DNA of 64,000 nt from Halomicrobium zhouii (GTDB lineage: Archaea; Halobacteriota; Halobacteria; Halobacteriales; Haloarculaceae): contig NZ_FOZK01000001.1 in assembly GCF_900114435.1 (NCBI RefSeq), forward strand, positions 682,001 to 746,000, in the 5' to 3' direction. A program made the translations under genes and the position numbers. Under the pieces are notes generated by a model that was given only the letters and a program-made list of their open reading frames with translations, was not told the origin of the DNA and did no database searches. This document shows positions 3,331 to 37,333 of this stretch, piece after piece. Within the stretch, counting starts at the first letter, position 1, and each line of letters begins with the position of its first letter.

Positions 3331-3661
3331 TAACTCCGGGGATTTCGGTCTGGGGGCTGTCGGGCTTCGACAGCCTCATTCTCAGCTCCGCTCACTCCGT
3401 TCGAGCTTCGGGCTGCTCGCGGGTCACTTCGTTCCCCGCTCGCTATAACCTGGTTCTTCGCTCCGTTCGCGACCAAGCTTCTCACGGCTCCCTCCGGTCG
3501 CCGTTCGCTATAACCTGGTTCTTCGCTCCGCTCAGAACCAGGCTGCTCGCGGGTCGCTGTCGCTCCCCGCTCGCTTTTCGTGGGCCTCTCACTTCGTTCG
3601 AGCCCCACCCAACTTCGCAACTACCAAATAGCCCCTAGAGCAACCATACACCGATTAGAAA
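3331..3661. repeat. Intergenic repeat block upstream of the ATP synthase operon
   Basis: This 331-bp gap has no credible gene. CGCTATAACCTGGTTCTTCG, followed by CTCCG, occurs twice exactly (3441-3465 and 3506-3530, a 65-base period). The second copy also forms an inverted repeat: CTGGTTCT at 3515-3522 pairs with AGAACCAG at 3534-3541. Short C/T-rich phrases of the type TCGCTCCGCTC and CTCGCGGGTC recur, as in the other haloarchaeal repeat blocks of this window. The last 40 bases before 3662 are A/T-richer and must hold the promoter of the ATP synthase operon. Confidence 0.7.
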
Positions 3662-12497: not shown

Positions 12498-12752
12498 TCG
12501 GGCCGGCGCCGACTACCGGGAGGGGCCGGCTTGCGGGCGAACGGCGAACGGAGTGAGCCGTGAGCCGTACGTTCACCCCGGAATCGCGCTCCGTGAGTCC
12601 GGATCCCGTCCGATTCCGGCTCTTTTTCGCCGCCGGCGCGACCTGCTTCGAGCCACGTCTGTGCCAGCTGCCCCGTCCGCCTGAGGAGAACGGCCGAGAC
12701 CGCCGCGAACAACTGAAAACGATTAACTGCCTCGGTCCGTAAGCCCCCAGTA
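12498..12752. repeat. Repeat-bearing gap between the DUF892 gene and atpD
   Basis: The first 75 bases repeat, with few changes, a phrase found at 51562-51604 and 51696-51738: a GCCGGCGCCGAC block, then GAGGGGCCGGCTT, then GGCGAACGG, followed by GGAGTGAGCCGTGAGC. The remainder includes a T-rich CTCTTTTTCGCC near 12620 and CTGAAAACGATTAACTGCCT (about 12712-12731), a good TATA region roughly 25-40 bases before atpD. No gene is visible. Confidence 0.6.
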
Positions 12753-19459: not shown

Positions 19460-19818
19460 TAGGCATGAATTGGCCGAGGGAGCGTAAGAAAGTGTTGACA
19501 GGGAGGCGCGCCCGAAGGGCGGGCCTCCGTATGGCGAACGGGAAGCGCTAGCGACCCGTGAGCAGCGGTCGGGGCGCGAGCGAAGCGAGCGGCCCGACGT
19601 ACGTGCGAGCGGGAGCGAACGGAGTGAGCGACACGCGAGCAGCGGTCGGTCCCGACTGAAAGGAGGGACCGACGAACGTGCGAACGGCGACCCGCGGGAG
19701 CCGTGAGCAGGGAGGCGCGCGACGACCGAAGCGAGGGGGCGCCTTATGGCGAGCGGGCCTACAGCCGACGCCGCCCGCCGACACCATCAAGCATCAGCGT
19801 CACTCACACGTAGCCAAC
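19460..19818. repeat. Repeat block between prf1 and the LarA-like gene
   Basis: This 359-bp gap has no gene. It begins with the prf1 promoter (CTTTCTTACGC on the minus strand). An 11-of-12-bp hairpin with a GAA loop follows (GGAGGCGCGCCC 19502-19513 with GGGCGGGCCTCC 19517-19528). The rest repeats phrases such as CGAACGGAGTGAGCG, GTGAGCAG and CGGTCGG with ACGTGCGAAC, also seen near 12540 and 51610-51690. The A/T content is too low for a strong promoter before 19819. Confidence 0.6.
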
Positions 19819-35902: not shown

Positions 35903-36364
35903 ATGACGACGCTCTACGACGTGCCTGCGGAGGACCTCATCGAGGCCGCCGCGGTCGAGCTCGCCGACGAGGACGAAATCGAGGCCCCCGACTGGGCCGA
36001 GTTCACCAAGACTGGCAACTCCCGCGAACTGCCCCCCGAACAGGACGACTTCTGGCAGCGCCGCGCCGCCAGCCTCCTGCGCAAGGTCGCCGTCGACGGC
36101 CCCGTCGGCGTCAACAGCCTCCGGACCGAGTACGGCGATTCGAAGGGCGGCTCCAACCGCTACCAGGTCCGGCCCCCGCAGAAGGCCCAGGCCTCCGGGA
36201 ACGTCATCCGGACCGCGCTCCAGCAGCTCGAGGAAGTCGGCTACATCGAGGCCGCCGGCGGCGAGGGACGGCGCGTCTCCGCCGAGGGCACCGCGTTCCT
36301 CGACGAACTCGCGGGCGACGTCCTCCGGGACCTTGACCGCCCGGACCTCGAGCGCTACGCCTAG
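35903..36364 (+). CDS. rps19e: Small-subunit ribosomal protein S19e
   Basis: The product has 153 residues. TTLYDVPAEDLIEAAAVEL at the N-terminus, DFWQRRAASLLRKVAVDGPVG and GGSNRYQVRP are the S19e signature. It is an archaeal/eukaryotic ribosomal protein with a winged-helix core, needed in late small-subunit assembly in eukaryotes. I chose the ATG at 35903, directly giving the family N-terminus. A T6 run follows the stop. Confidence 0.96.
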   Translation: MTTLYDVPAEDLIEAAAVELADEDEIEAPDWAEFTKTGNSRELPPEQDDFWQRRAASLLRKVAVDGPVGVNSLRTEYGDSKGGSNRYQVRPPQKAQASGNVIRTALQQLEEVGYIEAAGGEGRRVSAEGTAFLDELAGDVLRDLDRPDLERYA

Positions 36365-36370
36365 ACGACC

Positions 36371-36415
36371 TTTTTTCACGGGGGGGTTCGCGCGGCTTCG
36401 CCGCGCTCAACCCCC
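36371..36415 (+). terminator. T-run and hairpin downstream of rps19e
   Basis: Six T residues (36371-36376) begin six bases after the S19e stop. Next comes a hairpin with an outer stem GGGGGTT/AACCCCC (36382-36388 with 36409-36415) and an inner stem GCGCGGC/GCCGCGC (36390-36396 with 36400-36406). Order T-run then hairpin is unlike bacteria but compatible with T-run termination and a stabilised 3' end. Confidence 0.5.
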
Positions 36416-36605
36416 GCCAAAAAACGCCCTCAGACGCGCGAAGCGCGTCTGATGGGCTCGCAAGTGCGGAGCACTTGCGAACGTCGTCCTGGGGTCGCTC
36501 CGCGAACGCAGGGCTCGTCGGAGCTACGCTCCGACGGCGGAGAAAAAGGCCGGTCGCGCTCCGCGCGACCGGTGAAACCGCTCGCCGGCGGCGAGCGGTA
36601 TGCTC
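36416..36605. repeat. Array of perfect three-base-loop hairpins
   Basis: Five nearly consecutive perfect stems with three-base loops: TCAGACGCGC/GCGCGTCTGA (36430-36452, loop GAA), TCGCAAGTGC/GCACTTGCGA (36458-36480, loop GGA), CGTCGGAGC/GCTCCGACG (36516-36536, loop TAC), CCGGTCGCGC/GCGCGACCGG (36550-36572, loop TCC) and ACCGCTCGCC/GGCGAGCGGT (36577-36599, loop GGC). The stems are unrelated in sequence, so form, not sequence, is repeated. No gene lies here. Confidence 0.8.
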
Positions 36606-36760
36606 GTGTCTCCCGCATACAGAAGTTTTGCCAGAGAATTTCACGCCTGCTCAACTGATCATTGGGTTCTGGATATTGTAAGCAAGAGTCGGCGGTAGTG
36701 TAAACAGGGAACCTAGATTGGTTGTTGAGGTAGTTGCGGTCAAGCATCCGGCGAACGGAG
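36606..36760. other. A/T-rich island between hairpin arrays
   Basis: About 150 bases of far lower G+C than anything nearby (for example TTCTGGATATTGTAAGCAAG, 36665-36684, and AACCTAGATTGGTTGTTGAG, 36710-36729). No convincing frame or RNA fold is visible. It may be a remnant of a foreign element or an unmapped promoter. Confidence 0.35.
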
Positions 36761-36979
36761 CGAGCTGGTTCACTTCTCGCGAGGCGAAGCCGAGCGAGAA
36801 GCACTTTTTCGCCGCCGGGAGAGCAGAGCTCTCCCGAGCCCACACTCGCTTCGCTCGCGTGGACCACGTTTTTGCAAGTGGGGTGCCCGCAGCACGGCGA
36901 AGCCGTGCGAGGACACCCCCGCAGGAAAAAGGTGGGGTCGAAACTCCTTTCCCCCAGAAGTCGGTATATACGGTAAGCC
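36761..36979. repeat. Second hairpin block before the PDCD5-like gene
   Basis: More stems of the same kind: CGGGAGAGC/GCTCTCCCG (36816-36836, loop AGA) and GCACGGC/GCCGTGC (36892-36908, loop GAA), the latter inside GGGGTG/CACCCC. Two T-rich gaps (CACTTTTTCGCC, CACGTTTTTGCA) break the block. CGGTATATACGG at 36962-36973 is a TATA candidate, but lies only about 15 bases before the ATG at 36980. Confidence 0.6.
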
Positions 36980-37333
36980 ATGAGTGGGGAACCCAACGAG
37001 GAAGAGCTCGACGAACTGCGCCAGAAGAAGATGGAACAGCTCCGGGAGCAACAGGAAGGCGGCGGTCAGGACGCCGAGGCCCAGCAGGCTGCCCAGGACC
37101 GGGCCGAGGCCCAGAAGAAGGCCGTCCTGCGCCAGCACCTCACCGACGACGCGCGCCAGCGGCTGAACACGCTGAAGATGTCCAAGCCCCAGGTCGGCGA
37201 GCAGGTCGAACAGCAGATGGTCGCTCTCGCCCAAAGTGGCCGCGTTCAGGGGAAGATCGACGACGAGAAGATGAAGCAGTTGCTCGAGGAGATGACGCCG
37301 GACTCGAAGAGCTTCGATATCCGGCGCCGGTAG
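36980..37333 (+). CDS. DNA-binding protein of the PDCD5 family
   Basis: The product has 117 residues: a charged N-terminal helix rich in Gln/Glu, then the three-helix PDCD5 core ([21 protein letters not shown] ... [31 protein letters not shown]; about 52-108). The archaeal proteins are annotated as double-stranded-DNA binding. In many archaea the gene follows S19e; here more than 600 bases of hairpin-rich DNA separate them. A PP-loop enzyme gene begins directly after its stop. Confidence 0.92.

Follow-up and report, generated by a model that had tools for sequence, protein, structure and literature searches.

The S19e ORF occupies positions 35903-36364 of the window (the whole 64,000-nucleotide stretch of Halomicrobium zhouii DNA that was analyzed), and its TAG stop codon, the letters of which were checked, is located at 36362-36364 on the plus strand. 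The start codon of PDCD5 is at position 36980. Between the two genes lies a hairpin-rich gap, in which the initial annotation had placed five perfect 9-10-bp stems with three-base loops; the stems and loops were correct. We found that the insert at 36364-36934 consists of two inverted arms of a dispersed repeat, the B ends of which face each other across an A/T-richer centre.

The left arm runs from A to B at 36364-36611 on the plus strand (nhmmer comparison with arms) and contains a match of 62.7 bits, at 36530-36606, to R1, a covariance model of the module formed by hairpins 2 and 3. The A end (36369-36377) carries a T6 run (36371-36376), which begins after six bases from the S19e stop codon and is a candidate S19e terminator. 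Hairpin 1 (36378-36418) is set in a frame of a G-run and a C-run, and the fold places its tip, GCGCGGC-TTC-GCCGCGC, at 36390-36406. Perfect 10-bp hairpins with the loops GAA (36430-36452) and GGA (36458-36480) are followed by an imperfect hairpin (36491-36513), the counterpart of which in the related copy L056 is perfect over 11 bp, and by a perfect 9-bp hairpin with the loop TAC (36516-36536). Hairpin 2 (36550-36572, loop TCC) and hairpin 3 (36577-36599, loop GGC) are both perfect over 10 bp. The B end, GGTATGCTCG, is located at 36597-36606; like the preceding features it is read on the plus strand, and the B-end pattern has near matches in the H. zhouii genome. The A/T-richer centre (36612-36736, no strand assigned) is not conserved in sequence with respect to L009. 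The left arm and L009 also differ in the number of hairpins, a variation between close relatives that the initial annotation had raised.

The right arm (36737-36934, nhmmer) is inverted, so that it lies on the minus strand and runs from B to A on the plus strand; its R1 match is at 36741-36822 on the minus strand, with 63.5 bits. A tandem-GA hairpin tip with a c(GGA)g loop is present at 36752-36764 on the plus strand, the one on which this arm reads from B to A, and an imperfect or shorter hairpin was also found at 36749-36768. Further along the plus strand are a long hairpin with internal mismatches and a c(GAA)g tip (36773-36801), a perfect 9-bp hairpin with the loop AGA (36816-36836), and a hairpin with a tandem-GA tip (36841-36862), the c(GAA)g loop of which belongs to the minus strand instead of the strand usual for this arm. 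The stretch 36835-36863 recurs in the H. zhouii genome with 100% identity. Hairpin 1 of the right arm (36892-36908, plus strand) has a 7-bp perfect core and the loop GAA. The A end (36923-36932, minus strand) is an A5 run on the plus strand and a T5 run on the minus strand, upstream of PDCD5. The further hairpins noted past the A/T-rich island were present, as the perfect one at 36816-36836 and the imperfect or shorter ones.

In the window, six hairpins with a stem of at least 9 bp and a loop of three bases were observed, whereas 10 dinucleotide shuffles averaged 1.0 and never exceeded 2; all six are confined to this one gap, within 36430-36836. The genome check was made on an evenly spaced 400-kb sample of the H. 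zhouii genome. There, all triloops with a stem of at least 9 bp were mildly enriched (13 vs 6.0 shuffled), and 18 hairpins with a loop of 11 were counted at the same stem length (5.2 shuffled). At a stem of at least 8 bp, c(GNA)g or the complementary TNC loops numbered 12, against 0.3 or 1.7 in two runs of three shuffles each, and the other triloops 27, against about 20. Since 12 stands against 0.3-1.7, the equal density in shuffled sequence that had been named as grounds for rejection does not hold for the c(GNA)g class; the wider class of the initial annotation, triloops of any kind, is not special in the sample. Pure chance is ruled out by the shuffle comparisons in the window and in the 400-kb sample. 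So is an enrichment of all triloops, as c(GNA)g alone stands out.

The loops had also been described as an extra-stable type in DNA, which is true of most of them; GGC and AGA are outside the c(GNA)g class. That shape is the shared feature was correct insofar as the stem sequence is not kept. However, shape is not the sole shared feature, because the array is a homologous dispersed repeat with conserved spacers and T/A runs. Convergence on shape without homology is ruled out by the common spacers and ends of the dispersed copies.

A related phrase reported near 19501 corresponds to a c(GAA)g hairpin of 12 positions, one of which is a G.G mismatch, at 19502-19528 (by eye). It belongs to a separate hairpin-rich stretch, 19502-19700, with the same tips, including tandem-GA tips at 19577 and 19616. 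Another stretch, 3391-3610, has four tandem-GA tips about 66 bp apart (3391, 3457, 3522 and 3588) in non-matching surroundings, and its R1 match is weak (13.3 bits). Single tandem-GA tips in the window were also detected at 12545 and 51639.

A dispersed repeat family in haloarchaea

When the gap was compared with the H. zhouii genome by BLAST, 59 matches at E<=1 were obtained, those of the gap to itself among them, and the left array was matched at 81% identity by C2:514029-514288. The plan of an arm is T-run, hairpin 1, A-run, A-run, hairpin 2, GTGAAACC, hairpin 3 and ATGCT. When copies were compared side by side, the first half of the plan, from A to B, was GACC-TTTTTC-frame-hairpin 1-frame-AAAAA-CGTNGNNG-AAAAAGGC, and the second half was hairpin 2-GTGAAACC or GTGAACC-hairpin 3-GGTATGCT or GGATGCT. 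Palindromes are therefore found at both arm ends, hairpin 1 at A and hairpin 3 at B. The arms are about 120-270 bp long in the copies read, are non-coding and are below the size of a transposase. Rfam 15 gave no covariance-model match at E<=1 in 36000-37100.

R1 gave 39 matches at E<=0.1 in the H. zhouii genome, 29 of which were at E<=1.2e-4. A match at E<=0.01 was obtained in 31 of 40 genomes searched: in the host's family (f1), all 24 genomes examined were positive, with 2 to 43 matches each, and in other families of the order the distribution was patchy (7/16). These counts are lower bounds, only the best first-look candidates having been scored, and the E-values are rough. The R1 matches analyzed further numbered 81 overall, of which 39 were compared side by side; the row sets drawn from them comprised 70 for gene ends, 78 distinct ones for loops and 60 distinct ones for strand bias.

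The short pattern CGAACGNAGTGAG occurs 141 times in the H. zhouii genome (once for the reversed control), and 36 of 40 relatives also carry it. When 120 genomes drawn from the phylum were searched, all 20 haloarchaea had the pattern, as did 30 of the 100 others, mostly once or twice, a comparison that is weakened by differing base composition. Non-haloarchaeal members of the phylum, sampled over 386 kb, showed no clear excess of c(GNA)g loops (1 vs 0.3) or GA/GA mismatches (0 vs 0.7). From haloarchaeal families outside f1, 17 stretches (322 kb in total) were taken, and several of these contain listed pattern hits; together they gave 4 vs 1.0 and 8 vs 1.7, respectively, and the 11 stretches labelled as not chosen near hits (220 kb), one of which (L206) does contain a listed hit, gave 2 vs 0.3 and 2 vs 0.7. 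Since little of this grammar is seen outside f1, its strong form is mainly a feature of that family.

A second dispersed family of hairpin arrays was noticed in the H. zhouii genome (L064, L065 near 10077, and other places). It has an identical 29-base stretch in common with the window right arm (36835-36863), and its inverted outer arms lie around GAAAGCCCTCGG / CGAGGGCTTTC.

Stem pairing, loops and mismatches

In the covariation alignment of 73 distinct rows, 95.4% of 802 cells were paired, in an alignment that was fitted to the model, so that the counts lean toward pairing. Changes on both sides of a pair were found in 231 cells (69 in shuffles). The covariation score was 0.617, compared with 0.132 in shuffled alignments, and was reached by 0 of 500 shuffles; with slid partners it was at most 0.061. 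The 802 cells comprised 763 Watson-Crick, 2 G.T, 9 A.C and 28 other pairs; A.C corresponds to G.T when the opposite strand is read. Changes in RNA helices usually proceed by way of G.U. In these stems, G.T is rare whichever strand is read, and the stems change by paired Watson-Crick changes. Single 1x1 mismatches were too few to serve as an RNA test (5 in H. zhouii and 9 in others, mostly G.G).

Among 78 distinct elements, three-base loops were present in 107 of 143 hairpins, and 77 of these 107, read on the A-to-B strand, were c(GNA)g (14) or its complement c(TNC)g (63). Hairpin 1 had the same loop bias, with 41 TNC and 8 GNA triloops. When 2x2 mismatches near the tips were scored without presetting the mismatch identity, GA/GA (or TC/TC on the other strand) was found 26 times in the 400-kb sample, compared with 4.5 in shuffles, and 22 of these 26 hairpins had a GNA loop. 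In hairpins with both features, the context was Y-GA-R on both sides in 61/70 cases in the H. zhouii genome and in 59/67 in other genomes; about one quarter is expected if both flanking pairs are free. Y-GA-R is the context of sheared tandem G.A pairs in DNA, and a c(GNA)g triloop has a much higher stability in DNA than it has in RNA. Passages of PMC6582339 describe the GAA triloop as unusually stable and as containing a sheared G-A pair.

The tandem-GA tips are distributed very unevenly between the strands: in 60 distinct elements, 82 were on the B-to-A strand and 2 on the other, the count covering the modelled module plus 75 bases. A protein binding single-stranded hairpins, which the initial annotation had considered, would predict this one-strand GA bias, if true. 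A strict one-strand rule for every hairpin was rejected. The extra hairpins flip their loops, as seen between homologous hairpins of the left arm and those of L056 and L058, and the tip at 36841-36862 departs from the usual strand. Shared descent accounts for part of the uniformity of loops and strands, not for the variety of stems and flanking pairs. Since the stems rarely contain G.T, the tips are mostly c(GNA)g and the Y-GA-R GA/GA mismatches lie nearly always on one strand, these results suggest selection on single-stranded DNA and not on RNA.

Gene ends, flanking repeats and candidate carriers

By a crude gene test, which misses cases including the window copy, the stop codon of a protein gene was within 60 bp of the T-run at the A end in 28 of 70 elements, and the T-run started 1-10 bp past the stop codon in 24 of the 70. 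A stop codon was near the B end in 19/70. With tRNA-like ends included, gene ends were found at 44/70 elements, compared with 68/700 random placements; at 26/70 the test found none. Directly after tRNA-like sequences are the A ends of L126, L131 and L143 (by the test) and of L124 (by eye). A T stretch is described as the intergenic termination motif of Haloferax volcanii in passages of PMC7237163. Since T-runs are present in both directions, the element looks like a two-way terminator, and we regard this T-tract function as a candidate one, judged from the T-runs and their position.

At S19e-PDCD5, the insert is optional. We found 47 S19e loci, with PDCD5 within 4.5 kb in 36. The gap was 40-173 bp long and without a c(GNA)g hairpin in 22 of the 36; in the other 14 it was 205-940 bp long, with c(GNA)g hairpins in 10 and an R1 match in 6. 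In Halomicroarcula sp. SYNS111 (L020, 10460-10903), the gap contains near-identical tandem units and is without a c(GNA)g hairpin of at least 6 bp. Elsewhere, identical cores of 81-83 bases occur in different surroundings, at two sites in genome G004 and at three each in G019 and G020.

Direct repeats were analyzed for 58 of the 81 R1 matches, 23 having been dropped as paired, tandem, orthologous or weak. Direct repeats of 35-165 bp abutted both element ends exactly in 11/58, compared with 0/691 random placements. By a weaker criterion (any 30-bit direct repeat, abutting or not), the controls gave 10/234 and 22/691. A stop codon was within 10 bp of the B end in six of the eleven by the gene test (L059, L108, L116, L117, L123 and L145), and L112 and the two copies of L073 showed the same when read by eye; this pattern is not shared by L128 or by L142, which is a tandem array. 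In the gene-tail cases, the tail with its stop codon abuts the B end, and a second copy of the tail lies beyond the A end.

A site next to an Spt5-like gene (named from its translation) was found in several states. In genome G005 there is no element, and no R1 match, T5 run or A5 run is present in 600 bp. H. zhouii and G006 have the element plus a 98-bp copy of the tail, G003 (L150) has at least three tandem tail-plus-element units 182 bp apart, and G001, G002 and G004 have other versions. The tail copies differ at 1/98 positions within H. zhouii and at 2/98 within G006, and at 4 to 7/98 between genomes. At L108, the two tail copies are 77.6% alike in DNA and encode nearly the same peptide. 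From the divergences at these two loci, it follows that some repeats were exchanged or renewed after insertion, or came with foreign gene ends. We therefore do not claim the direct repeats as simple target duplications. L110 and L123 carry the element at what is apparently one orthologous site, and the repeat is present at L123 only.

Two roles proposed in the initial annotation bear on these results. The transcript-end role agrees with the siting of T-runs just past stop codons, and its support is positional. The recombination hot spot is supported in part, by the exact flanking direct repeats and by the tandem tail-plus-element units at one site. For a replication hot spot, these analyses yielded no evidence.

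No ORF beside the copies recurs beyond orthologous or common families; a neighbouring ORF recurred at no more than three other loci when acidic ORFs only were considered, and at no more than two without the filter. Around 30 TnpB loci, a sample of the TnpB hits with about 3.2 kb at each, no convincing R1 match was detected (the best were two at 12.2 bits, E 0.51). An autonomous partner was thus not found among the neighbouring ORFs and these loci. In genomes G002 and G020, three of eight copies tested (L187, L188 and L177) are enclosed by partly matching inverted repeats near GAGGGTGTCATAGAACT, with inverted matches of 16-25 bp at corresponding places. These repeats may mark a MITE carrying the hairpin element, and therefore some copies may travel inside another element. 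At the window copy, terminal inverted repeats were not seen by eye.

The element was found in 0 of 50,697 phage records. An exact 18-base pattern occurs in four viral contigs, one of which has a weak model match (18.3 bits, E 0.0062). Among plasmids, none matched the window arm, and four records matched the arm of L122, with nothing annotated beneath the match; one of the matching regions was inspected. A virus or plasmid carrier is discounted on these searches.

Possible origin and relation to known systems

We consider it fairly probable that the insert consists of two copies, inverted relative to each other, of a haloarchaeal repeat family that is dispersed, non-coding and mobile, appears to be selected for a fold of single-stranded DNA and may act as a two-way terminator. 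Selection would keep one strand foldable as single-stranded DNA, probably because its folded form is recognised by mobilising machinery or a DNA-binding protein. With T-runs at either side, the element would terminate transcription in both directions, which would allow it to sit between genes harmlessly. The element is presumably non-autonomous and would be moved by a mobilising enzyme. More tentatively, we propose as a possible but doubtful extension that the mobile element inherits mainly a DNA-only, one-strand fold, is recognised by its shape as single-stranded DNA and inserts beside stop codons. If so, the stems would change freely, and the sheared G.A triloops and tandem sheared G.A mismatches would be kept. 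Insertion would perhaps occur into single-stranded DNA opened at transcribed gene ends. With 35-120 bp of gene tail copied, the gene would keep its end and gain a two-way terminator.

A variant of a known element seems rather unlikely to us: either an IS605-derived PATE or a MITE that an ordinary transposase mobilises, the hairpins and T-runs being passengers. PATEs are indeed short, heterogeneous and non-coding, with near-terminal palindromes, in passages of PMC3119063, and the 3/8 copies within partly matching inverted repeats would fit a MITE. However, the same passages give PATEs no target duplication, whereas long direct repeats abut the element here in 11/58; the 30 TnpB loci yielded no convincing R1 match (12.2 bits at best, E 0.51), and the window copy lacks such terminal repeats by eye. 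An element acting at the RNA level is unlikely; in this view, the hairpins would serve in the transcript as a terminator hairpin, as a stabiliser or as a structure of the 3' UTR, and their DNA form would be incidental. The copies do come after stop codons and, read from B to A, the T-run is preceded by two hairpins; according to passages of PMC7237163, some hairpins are located upstream of termination sites in H. volcanii. Against this, G.T accounts for 2 of 802 cells on one strand and 9 on the other despite 231 double changes, and transcripts coming from either side would meet a T-run before hairpin 1, which has the same loop bias. The c(GNA)g triloops, being much more stable in DNA than in RNA, also speak for the DNA form.

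We regard as quite improbable a purely mutational origin, in which template switching during replication keeps creating and perfecting palindromes in GC-rich intergenic DNA and the gene-tail repeats are slippage products, no function being involved. It would explain perfect Watson-Crick stems, loops that flip between homologous hairpins (left arm vs L056 and L058) and the tandem duplications at L142 and in G003. However, several features do not follow from it: the retention of GA/GA mismatches, with their Y-GA-R context and one-strand bias, the conserved spacers, the identical cores at unrelated sites and the siting after stop codons.

Under the preferred reading, a mobile repeat selected for its single-stranded DNA fold, a DNA-specific folding code in genomic arrays would, if true, provide a handle on single-stranded DNA structures in living archaea. 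Such arrays would also bear on the evolution of gene ends and the spread of terminators. The long gene-tail repeats suggest a route of insertion or duplication for which we could name no known transposase.

No description of this family was found in the literature, as covered by titles, abstract openings and some passages, with subscription papers mostly outside. REP stems of bacteria are conserved in sequence, whereas the stems here vary and covary. REP/BIME elements, of which REPs are named in passages of PMC10969869, resemble the family as intergenic, dispersed palindromic repeats. The nearest named kinds in the passages covered are PATEs, SMRs and MITEs (PMC3119063, PMC10969869), all three of which are mobile repeats of Haloquadratum walsbyi according to passages of PMC3119063. 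PATEs are described there as short, heterogeneous elements without coding capacity, with near-terminal palindromes, tied to IS605-type ends and causing no target duplication. Our family is similarly a short, heterogeneous, non-coding haloarchaeal repeat with palindromes near both ends. It differs from PATEs, as far as these passages describe them, in the abutting direct repeats (11/58), in having no TnpB link in 30 loci as opposed to IS605-related ends, and in its DNA-specific grammar of loops and mismatches and its siting at gene ends. MITEs have a short fixed duplication; the direct repeats found here in 11/58, by a test that covered long ones, were long and variable. SPRITE of Streptococcus pneumoniae, in passages of PMC10969869, is likewise a mobile-looking repeat with terminator-like features, but belongs to another domain of life and, to judge from these descriptions, has another structure. 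The extraordinarily stable DNA mini-hairpin d(GCGAAGC), in passages of PMC6582339, shares the c(GAA)g tip and its sheared G-A pair; it is a short oligonucleotide or aptamer part, whereas genomic arrays with tandem GA/GA mismatches are found here. The archaeal T-stretch terminator of H. volcanii, as given in passages of PMC7237163, resembles the T5-6 run just past the stop codon, which here is part of a repeat with hairpins and T-runs in both directions. The uncommon part of this family is the combination of a DNA-specific folding code, siting at gene ends and gene-tail repeats.
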